A DNA stretch of 7,446 nt from Dethiosulfovibrio sp. (GTDB lineage Bacteria; Synergistota; Synergistia; Synergistales; Dethiosulfovibrionaceae), in NCBI GenBank assembly GCA_028709985.1, contig JAQUTB010000070.1, positions 1 to 7,446 on the forward strand, written 5' to 3'. Of this stretch, positions 149 to 7,446 are shown in pieces. The position numbers and the translations under genes were made by a program. The stretch's first letter is position 1. Each line of letters opens with the position of its first letter. Below the pieces are notes generated by a model. The model ran no database searches and was not told where the DNA came from. It saw only the letters and a list, made by a program, of their open reading frames with translations.

Positions 149-1033
149 ATGGAACTGTACTCTGACTGCGTAAACTGTGTGATAAAAAACGTCCTTCAAT
201 GCGCAAGAGAGATAGGGGTTAAAGAGAGGGATATGGTAAGGCTCGTCGGGCAAATATGTCGGGACCTGGGCCCTGAGATATCACAGACGTCCTGCTCCCC
301 CATACTGACCGAGATCGCCTATAACGCCCTGATGGGGATCTCCGGCCTCGCCGACCCGTTTGAGAAGGAGAAGAGAGCTATGGACGAGGCTATGATCCTG
401 CTGGAGGAGGGCTTCTTTGAGCTATCGTCGTCGAGGGAGGATCCAATAGAGGGCGCCCTTATTCTCTCCGGAGTAGCCAACCTGATGGACCTAGGGGCGT
501 TCAAGACGGTGGATCCCGAAGAGGTCGGCAGGATAATGGAGAGAGAGCTTGAGCTCCGACGGCTTCCCAGGCCACAGTACGCCGCCTTTTTAGACCTTAT
601 AGATCGGAATGGAGAATTATTGATCCTTGGGGATAACTGCGGAGAGATAGTGCTGGACAAGGTTGTTATCCGTCAGATGAGGCGAAGGTGGCCCAACCTG
701 TCCGTTACCTACGGGGTCAGAGGCAAACCGACCCTCAACGATGCCACGGAGGTCGAGGCCAAGAGGGTGGGGATGGACGACGTCGCGACTGTGGCATCGA
801 CCGGAGTCGGAACACCTGGTTTCGTGAGGGATATGGCGTCCCCTGAGTTCAAGTCCCTGTACGAAAGGGCCCCGGTCATCCTGGCGAAGGGGGTTGGAAA
901 CTTCGAGGCGGCGGAGTTCGGCGACGAGAGACTGTTCCATTTGTTCATAATAAAGTGCAATACCCTCTCCGATCTATTCAAAAGGCCGGAGAGGGATCTG
1001 GTTTTTATGTCAGGACGAGGCTCTCTGCTTTAG
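149..1033 (+). CDS. DUF89 / ARMT1-like damage-control phosphatase family protein
   Basis: A 294-residue protein of the DUF89 (ARMT1-like, archaeal AF1104-type) family. Members are metal-dependent phosphatases thought to clear damaged or surplus sugar- and cofactor-phosphates in the cytoplasm; the substrate here cannot be read from sequence. Visible motifs are an N-terminal Cys pair (C7, C10), DNCGE at 162-166 (usually DNAGE), RGKPTLNDAT at 191-200, AKGVGNFE at 246-253 and IIKCN at 267-271. These Asp/Asn residues form the metal and phosphate site in the family. Length is normal for the short prokaryotic branch. The ATG is preceded by an AAAGGATGG ribosome site about 9 nt upstream. It has no signal peptide or membrane segment. 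It stands alone, convergent with the beta-helix gene, with a near-palindromic element just after its stop. Family call is firm; substrate unknown. Confidence 0.9.
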   Translation: MELYSDCVNCVIKNVLQCAREIGVKERDMVRLVGQICRDLGPEISQTSCSPILTEIAYNALMGISGLADPFEKEKRAMDEAMILLEEGFFELSSSREDPIEGALILSGVANLMDLGAFKTVDPEEVGRIMERELELRRLPRPQYAAFLDLIDRNGELLILGDNCGEIVLDKVVIRQMRRRWPNLSVTYGVRGKPTLNDATEVEAKRVGMDDVATVASTGVGTPGFVRDMASPEFKSLYERAPVILAKGVGNFEAAEFGDERLFHLFIIKCNTLSDLFKRPERDLVFMSGRGSLL

Positions 1034-1039
1034 TGGAAC

Positions 1040-1158
1040 CTCTAAAAACGCTGACCCTCGGAGAGGGTCGTTCCGTCAAAGCTCATTCGAGCCCGTATTT
1101 TCGACATGCCGCAGACGGAACGACCTCTCCGAGGGGACTCTAAAGTAAGTTTTTAGAG
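1040..1158. repeat. 119-bp near-palindromic (MITE- or hairpin-like) intergenic element
   Basis: Outer arms are a perfect 10-bp inverted pair: CTCTAAAAAC at 1040-1049 and GTTTTTAGAG at 1149-1158. Inner arms of about 22 bp (1055-1077 and 1114-1136) are also complementary, differing by one missing base. The left inner arm is itself a perfect small hairpin, GACCCTC-GGA-GAGGGTC (1053-1069), so the DNA could form one long or two short structures. The spacer 1078-1113 has no clear gene. No convincing target-site duplication is visible. The element starts 7 nt after the upstream stop and covers the stop codon of the beta-helix gene. It may be a non-autonomous mobile element, or a two-way transcription barrier between convergent genes; a clean U-run directly after the stem is missing, so a classical terminator is less likely. 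Confidence 0.7.
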
Positions 1159-3467
1159 ATGCCCCTTATAAAGAGCGTCAAGGGAAGCAACAACAGTGCG
1201 GAGCCTATTCCCATGCCTGCCACAGAACAGCCACCACCTGAGGAGGGGGCTGGCTCGGTGGTCATCTGGGATGTTTCGGACCATTCGGCCCAACCTGAAT
1301 TCTCAAGCAGAGGGCGTACCCTGACATAATAATTAGTCCCATATGTCAGCTTTCCAGCCGGCACCTTAAGGGACAAAGTCTCGGATTGTGCTTCCGCATC
1401 GGGAAGTACCTCCTTGCCCTGAAGAGCGGAGTCAAAGACTATGTCGTTGAAATCCTTATCCCTGGCTATCTGCCAGCGCACGTCCTTAATTTTATCCCCA
1501 GAAGGCACCTTTATCCTAGCGGTAAGGATCGGGGCGAGGGGGTCAGCACCGGAAAAATCGGGGGAGATAGGATCAGCAACTACCGGGCCTGGAACGACCG
1601 GGTCAGGAGTAACCGGATCGGGAGTCACGGGCTCAGGGGTCACTGGCTCGGGGGTTACTGGTCCTGGAACCACAGGGACCTCTGGGACAAGCTCAAATGC
1701 TCCCATATCGACGCCATCTCCCTGGGGTCTTGAGACTCCTCTCTGATCCGCCGAGGGAACTGTTACAGGAAGGCCCTCCCAGCTTTTACCGGACCATATG
1801 ACGTCTCCGGAGATAAAATCAGCCGAAAGAATTTCCCCGACCCTCCAACCTTTATCCATAGCGGAGCTGCCACCGGAGATAGCGCACGTGGCGGAGAACC
1901 CCCCGTTATCACCGGCCTCTTTAAGCTTAGGATCCGATACGGATATATCCGACGATACGACGTTCAATCCCCCCTCTACGTCACCGGCCTGGACAACAGA
2001 AAAATACAGAGCAGGGGAGGAATCACCATCGTTGAAGATCTCTCCTCCACGGTTATCCCAGAAGACGGAGTTCAGAACAACGGGATTGCTTCCTTGCCCT
2101 ATAGCGCAGGATACGCTGCTGGAGCAGCTGGTGCTGTACATTCCACCGCCCTTTTTGCTGGCAAAATTGCCCTTCACGGTGCAATTTATGAAAAGGGGGT
2201 CGCTGTTGACTCTGTTATATATGGCCCCACCGTTTTTTGCCCTGTTCTCTACGAAGGTACAGTTCGTCACGACTGGGCTGCTCTTGGCGTTGTATAGAGC
2301 ACCACCGGATCCTTTGTCGTCGTCATCGATATCGGCGCTGACTAAGTTGCCGATAAAGGTTGTGTCGACTATGGAGAGGTCTGTTCCGGTGTTGTATATA
2401 GCCCCTCCCTCTATGACCGTGAAGTTGCCACGGAAGAGGCTTTGGGAGATCTTACCATCGCTTCCGACGCTCTCGTTTCTGAGGGCTCCTGCGTTATGGT
2501 GCGTGTGGTTGTCCTCAAAGACGCATCTCTCTATGAGTGGAGTACAACGTTGGTTATACAATGCTCCCCCACCTGCACCAGCCTCATTGCGACGAAAGAC
2601 GCAGCCCGTCAGGACAGGATTTCCTCTCCCGTTATAGACCGCGCCACCGTTGCCTAGGCAGTCTTTAGGGACGGAGGAGCCGGTTCCGGTTCTGTTGTCC
2701 TCAAAAGTGCAAGAGATAATCACCGGGTCGCTTTGGACGTTGGCCATGGCTCCCCCGTGCATATTGGCACCCGCCCTGTTCCAGGCAAACAAAGAGTCGA
2801 TTATCTCCGGAGCACCTTTTTGGTTCAGCATGGCTCCACCCATTCCGGCAGCCCTGTTTCCCCAAAAGACGCATTTGGACACCCTGATCCTCGAATCCAC
2901 GTTTGCCATACCGCCGCCGTTTCTACCGCTACCTCCTGTAACAAAAAAGCCGTCTAGGATAGCAGTTTGAATTCCCTTGGTGGAGACCACAGTCGTGCTG
3001 TTTATGCCGACTATGCCGTCGGCGCTGGAGATAACTCCCCTGTCATCGCTGATATCGTCGAGATAGAGATCCCCCGTAAGGACTGTTACGTTTTCGCGCC
3101 AATTTCTCTCGTTCAGGTTGTCCTCTATTCCGGTGAAGCCACCGTAAAGGGACACTCCCTCTGGAATGGTGAAGCTCAGGGCCTTGTCCGCTGATGCCAC
3201 TTCTGACGGGACCGACGGACGATACACTCCCTTTGACACAAAAAACACATCTCCCGACTGAGCAGCCCTCAGGCTTTCCCCAAACTGCGACTCGTTCAGG
3301 GAGCTCCCCCAGGAGGATCCGTCTCCGCCTGAGGAGTTGTTTTTATCGACCCTGAACACCGCTCCATCGGCCGGCCTTAACCCCGACAGGAATACGACAA
3401 AGGCACAAAGGCACACATATTTTTTCACAAAAAACCTTAATCTACCGAACACATCATCACACCTCAT
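1140..3467 (-). CDS. Secreted parallel beta-helix protein with choice-of-anchor Q domain and Synergist-CTERM sorting signal
   Basis: A cell-surface or exported protein with no enzyme signature. From the ATG: a basic-hydrophobic signal peptide (1-36, ending ADGA), then a right-handed beta-helix with ten GGA(M/L/V/I)YN-type rungs at about 185-445. A choice-of-anchor Q region follows at about 510-592, with DNGGFSAT, DQRGVSRPQG and DMGAFEL. Next come a V-T-P-E/D-P linker (599-628), an Fn3-like domain (about 640-735) and a C-terminal GGGC (744-747) plus a hydrophobic segment and Arg. The last part matches the Synergist-CTERM signal, presumed to be processed and anchored by a dedicated sorting system. 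The annotated ATG lacks well-spaced ribosome binding. GTG at 3452-3450 (codon 6) sits 7 nt after GAGGTG and is the likelier start (770 residues). The final residues SKNLL come from the inverted-repeat element. It follows the small rhodanese gene by 47 nt and is probably co-transcribed. Confidence 0.88.
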   Translation of the reverse strand: MRCDDVFGRLRFFVKKYVCLCAFVVFLSGLRPADGAVFRVDKNNSSGGDGSSWGSSLNESQFGESLRAAQSGDVFFVSKGVYRPSVPSEVASADKALSFTIPEGVSLYGGFTGIEDNLNERNWRENVTVLTGDLYLDDISDDRGVISSADGIVGINSTTVVSTKGIQTAILDGFFVTGGSGRNGGGMANVDSRIRVSKCVFWGNRAAGMGGAMLNQKGAPEIIDSLFAWNRAGANMHGGAMANVQSDPVIISCTFEDNRTGTGSSVPKDCLGNGGAVYNGRGNPVLTGCVFRRNEAGAGGGALYNQRCTPLIERCVFEDNHTHHNAGALRNESVGSDGKISQSLFRGNFTVIEGGAIYNTGTDLSIVDTTFIGNLVSADIDDDDKGSGGALYNAKSSPVVTNCTFVENRAKNGGAIYNRVNSDPLFINCTVKGNFASKKGGGMYSTSCSSSVSCAIGQGSNPVVLNSVFWDNRGGEIFNDGDSSPALYFSVVQAGDVEGGLNVVSSDISVSDPKLKEAGDNGGFSATCAISGGSSAMDKGWRVGEILSADFISGDVIWSGKSWEGLPVTVPSADQRGVSRPQGDGVDMGAFELVPEVPVVPGPVTPEPVTPEPVTPDPVTPDPVVPGPVVADPISPDFSGADPLAPILTARIKVPSGDKIKDVRWQIARDKDFNDIVFDSALQGKEVLPDAEAQSETLSLKVPAGKLTYGTNYYVRVRPLLENSGWAEWSETSQMTTEPAPSSGGGCSVAGMGIGSALLLLPLTLFIRGISKNLL
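1584..1673 (-). repeat. 15-bp coding tandem repeat (V-T-P-E/D-P linker)
   Basis: About six degenerate 15-bp units encode residues 599-628 of the beta-helix protein (VVPGP, VTPEP twice, VTPDP twice, VVPGP). Such Pro-rich repeats act as stiff spacers between an exposed domain and the anchor. Unit number is likely to vary between strains by slippage. Confidence 0.8.
2130..2921 (-). repeat. Degenerate beta-helix rung repeats within the CDS
   Basis: Codons 183-446 contain ten irregularly spaced copies of the rung GG(A/G)-hydrophobic-(Y/A/L)N. Most are followed by a P-hydrophobic strand, a Cys/Ser-Val/Thr-Phe turn and (D/G/E)N. Spacing is roughly 24-36 residues. The pattern is the polymorphic-outer-membrane-protein-like arrangement of a parallel beta-helix. 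DNA identity between rungs is low, so these are old protein repeats rather than recent duplications. Confidence 0.75.
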
Positions 3468-3514: not shown

Positions 3515-3952
3515 CTATTTCGTAACCGGTTCTATGAGGTTGGACGGGTCTTTCTGCCAGTCGATGATGCCCCCCTCGTAGTTCTTCACCGACTCGTAGC
3601 CCATCTTCACCATCTTTTTAGCGATGGTATTGCTCCTTTTCCCGCTGTTACAGTATGTGATCACAGTGACATCCTTGGTTAGACCCATGGAGTCGAGCTG
3701 CTCCTGGGTCATAGAGTCAAACTCATCGTCAAAGACGTTGATCGCCCCAGGGATGTGCCCTCCCTTGACTCCCTCTTTAGGGGACTCTCCGTTGAAATTC
3801 TCCGGGGATCTGACGTCCACCAGGACGAATCCTGCCTTGCCAAGGTGCTCCTTGACGTAGGCCTGATCGACAATCTCGACCGAGGCAGCGAAAGCGACGG
3901 AGGTACAGAGGACTACCATGATGGATAGAGCTAAACACTTCAGATTTCTCAC
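3515..3952 (-). CDS. Exported single-domain rhodanese-like sulfurtransferase (Cys active site)
   Basis: A 145-residue protein with an N-terminal signal peptide (1-22, ending VAFA) and one rhodanese domain. Key residues are LVDVRSPENF at 44-53, GGHIPGAINV at 64-73, active-site Cys101 in TYCNSGKRS, and NYEGGIIDW at 124-132. Rhodaneses carry sulfane sulfur as a persulfide on this Cys, so this one probably acts in the periplasm on thiosulfate or polysulfide-derived sulfur; donor and acceptor are unknown. The start is GTG (3952-3950), with AGGAG 10 nt upstream and a strong sigma70-type promoter further up. The beta-helix gene follows after 47 nt with no evident terminator. Its active-site loop is the Cys counterpart of the UGA-containing rhodanese 1 kb away, which makes it useful for comparison. 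Confidence 0.92.
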   Translation of the reverse strand: MRNLKCLALSIMVVLCTSVAFAASVEIVDQAYVKEHLGKAGFVLVDVRSPENFNGESPKEGVKGGHIPGAINVFDDEFDSMTQEQLDSMGLTKDVTVITYCNSGKRSNTIAKKMVKMGYESVKNYEGGIIDWQKDPSNLIEPVTK

Positions 3953-4179: not shown

Positions 4180-4899
4180 GTGGGAAGGTTTTTTAACAGG
4201 TCTTTTCTGTTGAAGGTTTGTCTGCCGGTGGGATTGATCGCAGGAGTGATGGCATTCAAGCCATCGAGGGATTGGGTAAAACAGGTCTTTTTGATGTTTC
4301 AGCTTTTGGACGTAAACCTGATAAGGGGGTATATCCTGTCCTTCGGCATATGGGCCCCTGTGATGTCATTTATCCTCATGGTCTTTCAGTCGGTGATAGC
4401 CCCTCTCCCGGCGTTTTTGATAACCTTCGCCAACGCAGGGCTCTTCGGGTGGTGGAAGGGGGCCATACTTTCCTGGTCCAGCGCCATGGCAGGGGCAGCC
4501 CTATGTTTTTTTATCGCAAAATGGTACGGAAGAAAGCCGGTTGAGCGCCTGACATCCAAGGCGGGACTTGAGGTAGTGGACCGCTTCTTCAACCGTTACG
4601 GCAACTATGCGGTTTTAGTCGCAAGGCTACTCCCCTTCGTGTCCTTCGATATAGTTAGCTACGGCGCCGGGCTGACCTCTATGAGATTCTGGCCATTTTT
4701 TCTGGCAACAGGACTGGGACAGCTGCCGGCGACGATAGTCTATTCCTACGTGGGAGGGATGTTGACCGAGGGGACGAGAAAATTCGTCCTGGGCCTTTCC
4801 CTGCTTTTCGTTTTAACCGCATTGGTCGCGCTGTGGAAAAAGATATATAGGGATCGCAGAGAGCCGGAAAGCTGCGCCGATCTTCCCTCAGGGAAATGA
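4180..4899 (+). CDS. TVP38/TMEM64 family (VTT-domain) inner-membrane protein
   Basis: A 239-residue integral membrane protein of the TVP38/TMEM64 (SNARE-associated, DedA-related) family, including E. coli YdjX and YdjZ. The biochemical role is poorly known; relatives are linked to lipid or small-molecule movement across membranes. Hydrophobic segments lie near 10-26, 57-88, 92-115, 143-166, 170-192 and 202-219. Family signatures are PLPAFLITFANAGLFGWWKG (76-94), FFNRYGNYAVLVARLLP (136-152), and a VSYGAGLT motif (159-166) followed by FATGLGQLPATIVY-like residues. The GTG start (4180) is chosen because GAGGTG lies 7 nt upstream and the membrane segment begins soon after. It is divergent from the Cys-rhodanese operon, and its stop is only 6 bp from the stop of the convergent UGA-containing rhodanese. 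Such proteins often sit beside rhodanese genes, as in the E. coli ydjX-ynjE region. Confidence 0.9.
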   Translation: MGRFFNRSFLLKVCLPVGLIAGVMAFKPSRDWVKQVFLMFQLLDVNLIRGYILSFGIWAPVMSFILMVFQSVIAPLPAFLITFANAGLFGWWKGAILSWSSAMAGAALCFFIAKWYGRKPVERLTSKAGLEVVDRFFNRYGNYAVLVARLLPFVSFDIVSYGAGLTSMRFWPFFLATGLGQLPATIVYSYVGGMLTEGTRKFVLGLSLLFVLTALVALWKKIYRDRREPESCADLPSGK

Positions 4900-4905
4900 C
4901 CGAGG

Positions 4906-5832
4906 CTAATTTTCCATGGGCATGTCCTCGTTTCCGCCCCACTCGTATATGGATCCCTCGTAGTTTCTGACTCGCTCAAAGCCGACGGCCCTGAGGACCG
5001 AGGTTACATACCCCGATCTTATGCCCATCGTTCAGTAGAGCGTGAAGGAATCCTGAGGTGTCAGAGCAAACCTATCCTTCATGATAGATCTGATCTCCTC
5101 AGGCAACCTGGGGCTGCCGTCTTCGTTCAGTATATCCAGCCACAACATCCATTTTGCCCCGGCGATGTGGCCTCCTCTGGGCTCTCCGGCGTTGGTGCTG
5201 CCGTCGAACTCCTTTTTCGTCCTGGTATCTATGAGCAGCTCCACGCCGAGGGATTCATGCACCTGGTCCATAGTTGCGTACCATGACCGATCGTACTCGT
5301 GGAGCGTCAGGGTCCCCTCGTCGGAGGGGGATGGCTTGGTGACCTCCCTAGTCAGCTCGTATCCCAACGAACTGTAGAGTGGCAGTCCACCGTAGAGGAG
5401 CCTTACGTTTTTCATGCCTGCCATCCTGAGCTGCCAGAAGTTGCGCCCGTCCGCCCCTGGTCCCTTGAACATGTCGGAGTAGAGCACGACGATAGAGTCG
5501 TCGTTGATGCCGAGCTCCCTCAGTTTGGGGCCAAGCTCTTCGATAGGCAGAGACGTCCCCCACCCCGGGTCACCGGGCCTTCCCACCGTTTTGGAGAAGA
5601 AATGGAATCCGACGTGAACCGCCCCAGGGATGTGTCCCTTGCCGTAGACCTTGGGGTTGTTCCCGTCCAGAAGCACTAACTTGGGATCCCCCAGCATAGA
5701 GTGAAGCTTCTGAGGCGTTATGAAGTACTCGGGATGGAGAAAACCGGAGAGATCCGGTTCATCGCCCCAAGCTGTCGCCGATATGGCGAGCACGAACATG
5801 GCAAGCCACGTTCGGATCAAAGCACGTTTCAT
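4906..5832 (-). CDS. Exported tandem-domain rhodanese, probable selenoprotein (UGA = Sec267 at the active site)
   Basis: Predicted 308-residue thiosulfate sulfurtransferase-type protein, with a signal peptide (1-23, ending TAWG). The N-terminal rhodanese domain (about 33-160) has LLDGNN at 54-59 and GHIPGAVHV, but Asp120 sits where the Cys would be, so it is non-catalytic, as usual for tandem rhodaneses. The C-terminal domain (about 185-305) has LIDTR at 200-204 and GGHIAGA at 220-226. TGA (5034-5032) then falls at the catalytic position in LY-U-TMGIRS. The frame runs on for 41 codons, including RNYEGSIYEW, to TAG at 4908-4906, 6 bp from the convergent gene. Conventional callers would end the gene at 5032. 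A SECIS-like hairpin follows the UGA. The ATG start has GGGAG 9 nt upstream. TGA is an ordinary stop in neighbouring genes, so the code is not globally changed. A nonsense mutation is the alternative but would have to hit precisely this codon. Confidence 0.85.
4996..5018 (-). promoter_or_regulatory. Putative bacterial SECIS hairpin downstream of the UGA
   Basis: On the minus-strand mRNA a 9-bp stem begins 13 nt after the UGA. GAUCGGGGU (5018-5010) pairs with ACCUCGGUC (5004-4996) through seven Watson-Crick and two G-U pairs, closing loop AUGUA. The loop starts 22 nt after the UGA, inside the usual bacterial range. The loop has a G, but in third place rather than the first two places typical of the E. 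coli-type consensus, so SelB recognition is not certain. Confidence 0.6.
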
Positions 5833-5948: not shown

Positions 5949-7055
5949 GTGAAATTGGACGATACTGAGCTGCCAAAGCTGCGGCTTTTCACGGATAGGT
6001 GCGTCGATTGCGGCCTGTGCCTGAAGGGATGCATGATGTCCGACGAGTTGAAAGACGGCCCTAAAAACGTCATCTCCCGTTTTCTGAGTGAAGGCACCGT
6101 TGACGACGCCTGGGCCTTTAGGTGCTCACTGTGCGGTTACTGTTCAACCGTCTGCCCCGCAGGAGCGGACCTGAGGTCGGTCATGATCGCGCTCAGGGAG
6201 GCGCCCTGTAAAAAGCCTCCCCTCAGGATGAAAAAGATTTTAGCTGGAGTCCTTCTCTTCCAGTTTATGGCGACCTGGAGACAGATGGGAACGCCTCCGG
6301 TCTTTCCGAAGAAGAGGGGCAAAAGACTGTTTTTCCCCGGCTGCGCCATGGCATCCTCCGACCCGGAGCTGGCCCTCAAGGTGTGGCAAATGTTGATCTC
6401 CATCGACCCCGACATGGGGATCATGGTGGATTGCTGTGGAACCCCTGCTTTGTCCCTAGGAAGACGGGACATCTCCGAGAGGATAAGGGGCAGGCTCGAA
6501 AAAACCCTGACAGTTTGCGGCGTGGAGGAGATAGTTGTGGCCTGTCCTAACTGTCTGAAGGCCCTATCGTGCCTCCCTGTGAAGGTGACCCCCGCGTGGG
6601 GATACCTGGAAAATACCATATCCGACTTACAGGCCTTCGAGGGCAAAGAGGCCATGTTTCACGCTCCATGTCCTCTCAGGGACGAGAGCAGGGAGTTGGC
6701 CGAGGTCGAACGGTTGGCCAGGACCCTTTTCCCATCCATACGCACAAAACCCTATGGAGCTAACGGCGGGGTGTGTTGCGGAGCCGGAGGCATGGTCCCT
6801 ATCGTGCATCCTAAAACGTTTTCCGATTGGTCCAGAAGGATCTCCGATTACAGGAGGGACGGGGAGACCGTCCTGTGCTGCTGCCAGAGCTGTGTCGACG
6901 CCATGGGCGGACGGGATGCCGACGTGGTCCATCTACTGAGAGTCATGCTCGGTGGTGAGGCTCCCCCACCTCCGACAGGGCTCGGCAGGTGGATCAACCG
7001 CAGAAGACTGAGAAAAGCCATACTAGGCAACCAAAACTGGAGGGGTTTTAAATGA
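5949..7055 (+). CDS. Fe-S oxidoreductase with two 4Fe-4S motifs and two CCG domains (HdrD/GlpC-like)
   Basis: A 368-residue soluble electron-transfer protein of the type found in heterodisulfide reductase subunit D, GlpC and LutA/glycolate oxidase iron-sulfur subunits. Two ferredoxin-type motifs are C18-C21-C24-C28 and C59-C62-C65-C69. Two complete CCG (cysteine-rich) domains follow: C132, C162-C163, C199-x2-C202, and C241, C276-C277, C312-x2-C315, with the CC-to-CxxC spacing (34-35) typical of that family. In HdrB/HdrD, CCG domains hold noncubane 4Fe-4S clusters that work on disulfides, so a thiol/disulfide or small-acid redox role is likely, but the substrate is unknown. GTG start (5949) with GGGGG 8 nt upstream. 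No membrane anchor. Its TGA overlaps the ATG of the next gene, so the two are translationally coupled and probably act together. It is not next to a flavin oxidase or HdrA gene in this window. Confidence 0.88.
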   Translation: MKLDDTELPKLRLFTDRCVDCGLCLKGCMMSDELKDGPKNVISRFLSEGTVDDAWAFRCSLCGYCSTVCPAGADLRSVMIALREAPCKKPPLRMKKILAGVLLFQFMATWRQMGTPPVFPKKRGKRLFFPGCAMASSDPELALKVWQMLISIDPDMGIMVDCCGTPALSLGRRDISERIRGRLEKTLTVCGVEEIVVACPNCLKALSCLPVKVTPAWGYLENTISDLQAFEGKEAMFHAPCPLRDESRELAEVERLARTLFPSIRTKPYGANGGVCCGAGGMVPIVHPKTFSDWSRRISDYRRDGETVLCCCQSCVDAMGGRDADVVHLLRVMLGGEAPPPPTGLGRWINRRRLRKAILGNQNWRGFK

Positions 7056-7446
7056 CTTGGAGGATAGACATCAAAACAGGGGAAATACTGAAAAAAGGCT
7101 CAAGCGGATCGGGAATAGACAGGGACGAGGCCCTTTACCTCATGGCTCTCCCGTTGGGTTCAAAGGAGACCTACGCCCTCATGGAGGCCGCCGATTCCCT
7201 TTCCAGGGAGACATTCAAAAACAAGGGGGAAAAACACTTCCACATAGGACTGAACGTGGCGCCCTGTCCGCTCAACTGTAGTTTTTGCTCTCTGACCGTA
7301 AAGACCGGGATATTCAAGGAGTCGATAGACTTCTCCGACGACCAGATCCTGGAATGGGCCAGATACGGAGAGTCCCGAAAGGCCGACTCGCTCAACCTCA
7401 TGACCACGGGGAACTTTCCCATGAAGCGGCTTTTACACGTCGGCAG
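7052..7446 (+). CDS. Radical SAM protein, BioB/HydE-like N-terminus (partial, runs off the window)
   Basis: The first 131 residues are visible, without a stop. The radical SAM cluster motif CxxxCxxC is C72-x3-C76-x2-C79 in NVAPCPLNCSFCSL. Before it come a helix-rich BioB-like lead (GIDRDEALYLM, near 21-31, and LSRETF near 50-55), then FHIGLNVAPC. This arrangement resembles biotin synthase, HydE and HmdB-type enzymes, which cleave S-adenosylmethionine to form a 5'-deoxyadenosyl radical. Which reaction is catalysed cannot be told from this part. The ATG (7052-7054) overlaps the previous stop as ATGA, with GGAGGGG 6 nt upstream. The Fe-S partner upstream may supply electrons. No signal peptide. 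Confidence 0.85.
   Translation, partial: MTWRIDIKTGEILKKGSSGSGIDRDEALYLMALPLGSKETYALMEAADSLSRETFKNKGEKHFHIGLNVAPCPLNCSFCSLTVKTGIFKESIDFSDDQILEWARYGESRKADSLNLMTTGNFPMKRLLHVG

Follow-up and report, generated by a model that had tools for sequence, protein, structure and literature searches.

The question raised by this locus is what a TGA codon inside a rhodanese gene of Dethiosulfovibrio sp. stands for. The gene lies on contig JAQUTB010000070.1 of assembly GCA_028709985.1 (66% complete, 358 contigs; contig C208 in our numbering), in a stretch of 7,446 nucleotides that was analysed as a whole and is called here the window. On the minus strand its reading frame starts with an ATG at 5832, meets the TGA as codon 267 at 5034-5032 and continues for 41 more codons up to a TAG at 4908-4906, which gives 308 codons before the stop. 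An earlier interpretation (the sequence-only reading) had proposed that this TGA encodes selenocysteine (Sec) as the catalytic residue of a rhodanese exported from the cytoplasm. Its description of the frame was confirmed, as was the gap of 6 bp separating the extended gene from the convergent gene that ends at 4899. The evidence presented below favors, with a probability of about 0.85, a protein carrying Sec at the active site of a tandem rhodanese and acting as a sulfurtransferase on the outer face of the cytoplasmic membrane. The elements of the gene are:

4906..5832, minus strand: predicted tandem Sec-rhodanese, full coding frame of 308 residues with TGA as Sec (PF00581, two stretches)
5032..5034, minus strand: in-frame TGA (codon 267), aligned with the active-site Cys of rhodaneses (alignments, DNA reading)
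4996..5018, minus strand: predicted hairpin resembling a Sec insertion sequence (SECIS), 9-bp stem, apical loop 22 nt past the TGA (folding)
5767..5832, minus strand: predicted signal peptide at the N-terminus (assigned by eye; the structure model has a helix at 8-20, of low confidence)
5374..5718, minus strand: first rhodanese domain, whose corresponding loop has no Cys (YSD..GPGADGR; PF00581, alignment, model)
4909..5271, minus strand: second rhodanese domain with the predicted Sec; the standard gene call drops residue 267 onward (alignment, model)

The TGA is shared by a whole clade of genes. When the clade members were read as DNA, the codon was found at the site in all 38 distinct genes, window included, which belong to four phyla and are 45-100% identical; these are the loci left once six duplicates were removed, and the second TGA copy of genome G342 is not among them. 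Two genomes, G342 and G679, each hold two TGA-containing copies. The extension past the TGA measures 41 codons in 34 of the genes and 43 codons in the other 4, the final stop is TAG in 21 and TAA in 17 and never TGA, and the site motif reads UTMGIRSG in 37 and UTMGMRSG in one. Within Dethiosulfovibrio, the full-length gene is present in five of seven genomes and missing from two; every copy contains a single TGA, always at this codon. The four other genus copies are 84-94% identical to the window gene, and residues 268-304 are invariant across all five copies while synonymous sites differ. The sequence-only reading had left room for a misread TGC or TGT and for a downstream frame decaying in relatives; the recurrence of TGA in independent assemblies and the conservation of the frame settle both points. 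A sequencing error or a pseudogene of one fragmented assembly, which the low completeness and the many contigs might suggest, is refuted by these independent genomes (TGA in four other genus genomes and 33 further genes, with an intact conserved extension) and keeps a negligible probability.

The databases tell a different story about the same codon. Among the best 120 of 736 database matches, 116 end exactly one residue before the site, so that the standard gene call loses the active site, as had been anticipated from the window alone; the other four have Trp at the site (P0003 and P0005), have Cys (P0004) or end elsewhere (P0073). These annotations are what can be said for a true stop at the TGA, with a functional protein of 266 residues and an untranslated remainder. 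Such a stop is very improbable, as it sits badly with residues 268-304 being identical in five genus copies whose synonymous sites vary, with the genes' real stops being only TAA or TAG 41 or 43 codons later, with the loss of the active-site loop and the last helices of the rhodanese fold that truncation would entail, and with the natural full-length Cys version P0004. Six of the shortened records are residue-for-residue identical, start residue aside, to loci in which the TGA was read, among them those of Peptoclostridium acidaminophilum DSM 3953 (P0009), Tepidibacter hydrothermalis (P0023) and a Maledivibacter (P0016). Psychrilyobacter (Fusobacteriota) is also among the listed family records, known there from protein records alone. 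The family is therefore likely a widespread and systematically truncated selenoprotein, and more than 100 shortened "sulfurtransferase" records (the 116 above) become candidate selenoenzymes with a lost active site. It reaches cultured organisms, namely Peptoclostridium acidaminophilum and, by inference, Dethiosulfovibrio peptidovorans.

Outside the clade the site is occupied differently. In the scan of named genomes, the best 80 of at least 293 loci have TGA in 8 cases, TGC in 53, TGT in 17 and GAC in 2, and the 8 TGA loci are exactly those at 45-54% identity: Clostridia bacterium, Proteocatella sphenisci, Desulfotomaculaceae bacterium, Candidatus Aquicultor secundus, Desulfosediminicola flagellatus, Clostridium sp., Desulfoscipio geothermicus and Peptacetobacter hominis. 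The order around Proteocatella (393 genomes, E <= 1e-50) yielded 39 matches, of which 18 at 51-61% identity contain one TGA each and the remaining 21, at 35-41%, contain no stop. Class-level searches at E <= 1e-60 returned one TGA in 11/11 matches (10 of 113 genomes) and in 3/3 (3 of 257 genomes). More distant homologues have Cys or Asp at the site. Across 185 genomes of the window's phylum, 63 further genomes match at E <= 1e-20, all at 37% identity or less and with no stop; of 25 such loci (L038-L062), 23 carry Asp at the site and 2 carry Cys. The distant Synergistota tandem rhodaneses L040-L062 share a YDTAGVR motif with Asp instead of the catalytic Cys, and are without a chalcogen nucleophile there.

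These occupants bear on whether the TGA is read through as some other amino acid, such as Trp, by suppression or an altered code. The Trp of P0003 and P0005 would be in keeping with that, and presumably comes from gene prediction reading TGA as Trp. The flanking genes at 4180-4899 and 5949-7055, however, both terminate in TGA, so the codon is not reassigned wholesale. Moreover, the clade's one full-length non-TGA member and 70 of the 72 non-TGA loci among the best 80 have Cys, which counts for Sec because Cys is its usual counterpart, and all 8 TGA genomes of the named collection have tRNA-Sec (61-77 bits). Insertion of another amino acid is accordingly hard to credit.

A tree computed with the site masked places 27 Sec genes and the Cys protein P0004 opposite 23 Cys and 2 Asp comparators on a branch supported at 100/100; the 11 TGA genes found later were left out. 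The comparators, which also underlie the synonymous recoding, extension and neighbourhood comparisons, were hand-picked from the fetched loci, without the more distant Cys loci (L084-L146) or the Asp loci beyond these two. Bacillota, Thermodesulfobacteriota and Actinomycetota are intermingled with Dethiosulfovibrio on the Sec side, whose internal order is weakly supported. The gene belongs to a widespread family of predicted Sec rhodaneses and does not result from a local exchange of Cys for Sec. A simple swap within the genus was rejected, as the search of the phylum yielded no close Cys orthologue and the other matches at E <= 1e-20 are at most 37% identical.

The machinery for Sec insertion is present in the genome of the window, in line with what the sequence-only reading required. 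SelA (471.9 bits) and SelB (351.5 bits) are encoded next to each other on a single contig, tRNA-Sec scores 68.6 bits with anticodon TCA, and SelD (327 bits) has an in-frame TGA of its own following an N-terminal TSG (L065:1500-1560), which makes this TGA-containing SelD an internal positive control. Close to selA-selB lies a gene (L001:451-1071, minus strand) that we take to be YedF-like, of TusA/DsrE type. The Synergistetes are described as selenoprotein-rich in the available text of PMC5029168, with Sec use possible in 13 of the 14 organisms sequenced.

Sec insertion also calls attention to the RNA just past the UGA. The window hairpin has its 5-nt loop 22 nt after the UGA on a 9-bp stem, with a minimum free energy (MFE) of -12.6. 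Its spacing, loop size, stem length and MFE all lie within the bacterial SECIS (bSECIS) model as given in the accessible part of PMC13188914 (16-37 nt after the UGA, loop of 3-9 nt, stem of 4-16 bp, MFE <= -7.5). Over the 38 genes, loop size lies within these limits in 38, spacing and stem in 36 each and MFE in 34. The misses in spacing and stem (L182 and L191) come from scoring an additional hairpin closer to the TGA, the 22-nt hairpin being drawn there too, and L074 folds into a different hairpin. No Rfam match over the window reached the gathering score. For 27 genes (21 distinct rows), the 51 nt from the TGA onward could be aligned in codon register with no gap; in this alignment 95.2% of the cells of the 9-bp stem are paired against 23-44% when the partner strand is slid, and the covariation score of the stem was matched in 0 of 500 shuffles. 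Five Dethiosulfovibrio-type sequences form the same stem in a slipped register. Since shuffles ignore coding constraint, synonymous recoding was used as well (300 times per gene), giving a mean z of -1.73 in the 27 Sec genes, whose hairpin is thus more stable than the recodings predict, versus +0.04 in the 23 Cys comparators, which lack this effect (Mann-Whitney p 1e-6, not corrected for relatedness). On the gene set, stem pairing and recoding reject a chance hairpin, though single sequences are weak. The element is predicted to be a non-canonical SECIS.

Together, the Sec machinery, the TGA conserved across phyla, the hairpin that looks selected and the intact extension bear out the proposed Sec at the catalytic position, and decoding of the TGA at 5034-5032 as Sec267 is very likely. 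Several observations have to be set against this picture. SelA was found in 12 of 12 Synergistota genomes searched, including two genus genomes without the rhodanese gene, so the machinery is necessary but does not discriminate; similarly, 15 of the 16 genomes searched, among them Cys genomes, exceed the tRNA-Sec cut-off, and so do 5 of 14 controls. The published bSECIS rule, in the same partial text of PMC13188914, asks for a G within the first two apical-loop positions, and an early loop G occurs in only 4/38 genes (L020-L022, and L074 via its other hairpin) and not in the window. Double-sided changes affect only 2 of the 9 stem pairs, a number reached by 327 of 500 shuffles. Taken singly, just 13 of the 27 Sec genes fall in the best 5% of their recodings, as does 1 of the 23 Cys genes, and the window hairpin alone is unremarkable by dinucleotide shuffling (z -1.4 and -1.1). 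The clade member P0004, known as protein only, is full-length with a natural Cys at the site, and the Asp in 23 of the 25 distant Synergistota loci indicates that the fold can serve something else. Finally, the Sec assignment is built on DNA and predictions, and sulfur transfer is deduced from fold and family.

At the protein level, the window gene would encode a tandem rhodanese of the thiosulfate/3-mercaptopyruvate sulfurtransferase type. Domain matches, alignment and structure model agree on two rhodanese domains with the active residue in the second, and the model puts the site in the loop that joins strand 263-266 to helix 271-282, together with Arg272 and Ser273. The closest solved folds are the thiosulfate/3-mercaptopyruvate sulfurtransferases 3p3a, 3hzu (SseA), 1e0c (RhdA) and 1uar. 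Whereas these four enzymes have Cys (in the loop CRIGERS of 3p3a and CQTHHRS of 1e0c), the window protein has the predicted Sec in UTMGIRS; furthermore, unlike the four, the clade has a predicted signal peptide or a lipobox-like N-terminus. A loose lipobox pattern is present in 29 of the 38 family members and absent from the window protein. In NCBIfam the clade reaches no model's cut-off, the SseA model NF008557 giving 60.2 bits against a curated cut-off of 250.

In the mechanism envisaged, SelB and tRNA-Sec, helped by the hairpin just past the UGA, would insert Sec267. Its selenolate, sharing the loop with Arg272 and Ser273, would attack thiosulfate, polysulfide or another donor of sulfane sulfur. 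The sulfur would be kept as Sec-Se-S(-) and then passed to a thiol or other acceptor. The window protein contains no cysteine, which makes a resolving Se-S bond within the same chain impossible; a transferase cycle therefore fits better than a peroxidase or disulfide cycle. Sud, the polysulfide-sulfide transferase of Wolinella, is an envelope single-domain Cys rhodanese proposed to donate sulfane sulfur to a respiratory system; it resembles the mode of action predicted for the window protein in handing over sulfane sulfur at the envelope, and differs in having one domain and Cys where the window protein is tandem with a predicted Sec. Extracytoplasmic sulfur transfer by the predicted enzyme is, on this basis, reasonably probable, and a role in sulfane-sulfur handling at the envelope is likely in Dethiosulfovibrio. 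The type species, D. peptidovorans, uses thiosulfate and elemental sulfur as electron acceptors, according to the part of PMC3035263 available. Sulfane-sulfur handling outside the membrane is thereby indicated as a task of selenium in anaerobes.

Sec rhodaneses as such appear in reviews as predictions, five forms being listed in the newest, of which form 4 belongs to the SseA group (COG2897), has a UxxG motif and came first from the Sargasso Sea set (PMC13188914, PMC9312934, PMC1088965 and PMC2398784, in the portions available). The chemistry is consequently of a known kind, and form 4, with MQG53192.1 and MCY3690685.1 as its published examples, and the window protein are alike in SseA group and U-x-x-G motif, a comparison by motif and group name only. 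The available portions of these descriptions mention no VTT or Fe-S partner, no export and no truncation. In the literature searched, seen largely as excerpts, no account was found of an exported VTT-linked clade, nor of its four-phylum reach, systematic truncation or loop-variant hairpin; the truncation-based selenoprotein studies of Haft and colleagues, cited in PMC13188914, may cover the family. Those searches likewise gave nothing joining TVP38, rhodanese and selenium, nothing joining at least three of selenoprotein, PGAP, TVP38 and rhodanese, and, for thiosulfate sulfurtransferase with selenoprotein and UGA, three matches that were all off-topic by title and opening of the abstract.

Around the gene, three neighbours enter the discussion of its function:

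4180..4899, plus strand: VTT-domain (TVP38/TMEM64, DedA superfamily) membrane protein, convergent partner (domain match)
5949..7055, plus strand: 4Fe-4S / CCG-domain protein, divergent partner (domain match)
3515..3952, minus strand: single-domain Cys rhodanese close to the module, its N-terminus signal-like (domain match)

The sequence-only reading had aligned the Sec protein with the last of these. That alignment stands, the TGA falling on Cys101 of the neighbour as counted from its GTG (VITYCNSGKRS against FTLY-TGA-TMGIRS). The window protein is a tandem, two-domain rhodanese, so the single-domain neighbour is only a distant relative. As a source of the Sec gene it was rejected, being only about 30% identical to the second domain. 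Of the other Sec genes, just the one at L068 has a rhodanese like it nearby (28% identity).

The VTT gene is the more regular companion. It lies within 400 bp of the Sec gene core in 33 of the 38 loci: in 28 it is immediately upstream and on the same strand, and in the 5 Dethiosulfovibrio loci it is downstream and convergent; two of the five loci without it (L067 and L161) end near the gene's 5' side and three (L160, L074 and L163) do not. The best VTT match per Sec locus is 58-100% identical to the window VTT protein, whose three closest matches stand at 89-92%, with D. salsuginis and an uncultured Dethiosulfovibrio at 77-78%. A VTT gene also adjoins the Cys rhodanese in 16 of 23 comparators, with VTT identities of 28-64%. 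The 4Fe-4S/CCG gene is near (1,500 bp or less) in only 9 of 38 Sec loci, and hence an occasional partner, and in 8 of 23 Cys loci. In Desulfosediminicola, a gene directly downstream of the Sec rhodanese (L071:3831-5579) joins 4Fe-4S, CCG and VTT in a single chain, a fusion that links both partner gene types.

This linkage is also what lends weight to the idea that Sec is inserted but serves to move selenium, or to reduce an oxyanion such as selenite, at the envelope, the VTT protein acting as transporter. Rhodaneses can carry selenium as a perselenide, and a DedA protein has reportedly been linked to selenite resistance. The module is nevertheless not tied to selenium, because VTT genes pair with Cys rhodaneses too, and the closest solved folds are thiosulfate sulfurtransferases. 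Selenium chemistry of this sort is thus an unlikely role that still deserves some weight, and sulfur transfer appears better supported by fold and family than a "selenium transferase".

How the predicted sulfurtransferase would work with its partners is more speculative. The VTT membrane protein and the 4Fe-4S/CCG protein could link the transfer either with the membrane or with electron carriers in the cytoplasm, and a relay with the VTT protein is regarded as a tentative possibility. A similar gene company exists in E. coli K-12, where two DedA-family genes and a 4Fe-4S gene share a neighbourhood with the gene for the rhodanese-fold protein YnjE, a three-domain Cys protein. The ydjXYZ-ynjABCD/ynjE region differs in having additional AhpD-like and ABC-transporter genes and a YnjE chain of about 410 residues. 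YnjE is described as directly activated by FNR, and ydjXYZ-ynjABCD is listed in the same FNR-regulon table (PMC3688515, in the part available). Some DedA proteins of COG0586 have rhodanese fusions, whose meaning is called unclear in the available text of PMC10127716. A membrane-coupled sulfane-sulfur relay may on these grounds be considered a reasonable, if speculative, proposal.

In its widest form, which is possible but doubtful, the window would hold the Sec-armed version of an ancient, unrecognised envelope chalcogen relay. The extracytoplasmic tandem rhodanese would take up sulfane sulfur (or selenium), the TVP38/VTT protein would carry or gate the chalcogen and a cytoplasmic 4Fe-4S/CCG protein would reduce it. 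The E. coli ydjXYZ-ynjABCDE region would be a Cys counterpart, and the SECIS hairpin would represent a class that lacks the canonical loop G. The Sec version would have escaped notice through gene calling, since nearly all the gene calls examined end one residue short of the active site. For the functionally unexplained TVP38/VTT family, the association offers a testable biochemical partner.

Radical-SAM-like genes also occur near the Sec gene in the five genus loci and a few others (window 7052-7446, plus strand; L068:3921-4805; L153:488-1393; L069:1145-2140), those of the window and L069 scoring below curated cut-offs. Elsewhere in the window, 1140-3467 (minus strand) encodes a large protein with polymorphic-membrane-protein repeats and a choice-of-anchor domain, whose Synerg-CTERM match is slightly below the cut-off, and 149-1033 (plus strand) encodes a protein with an ARMT1-like damage-control phosphatase domain.
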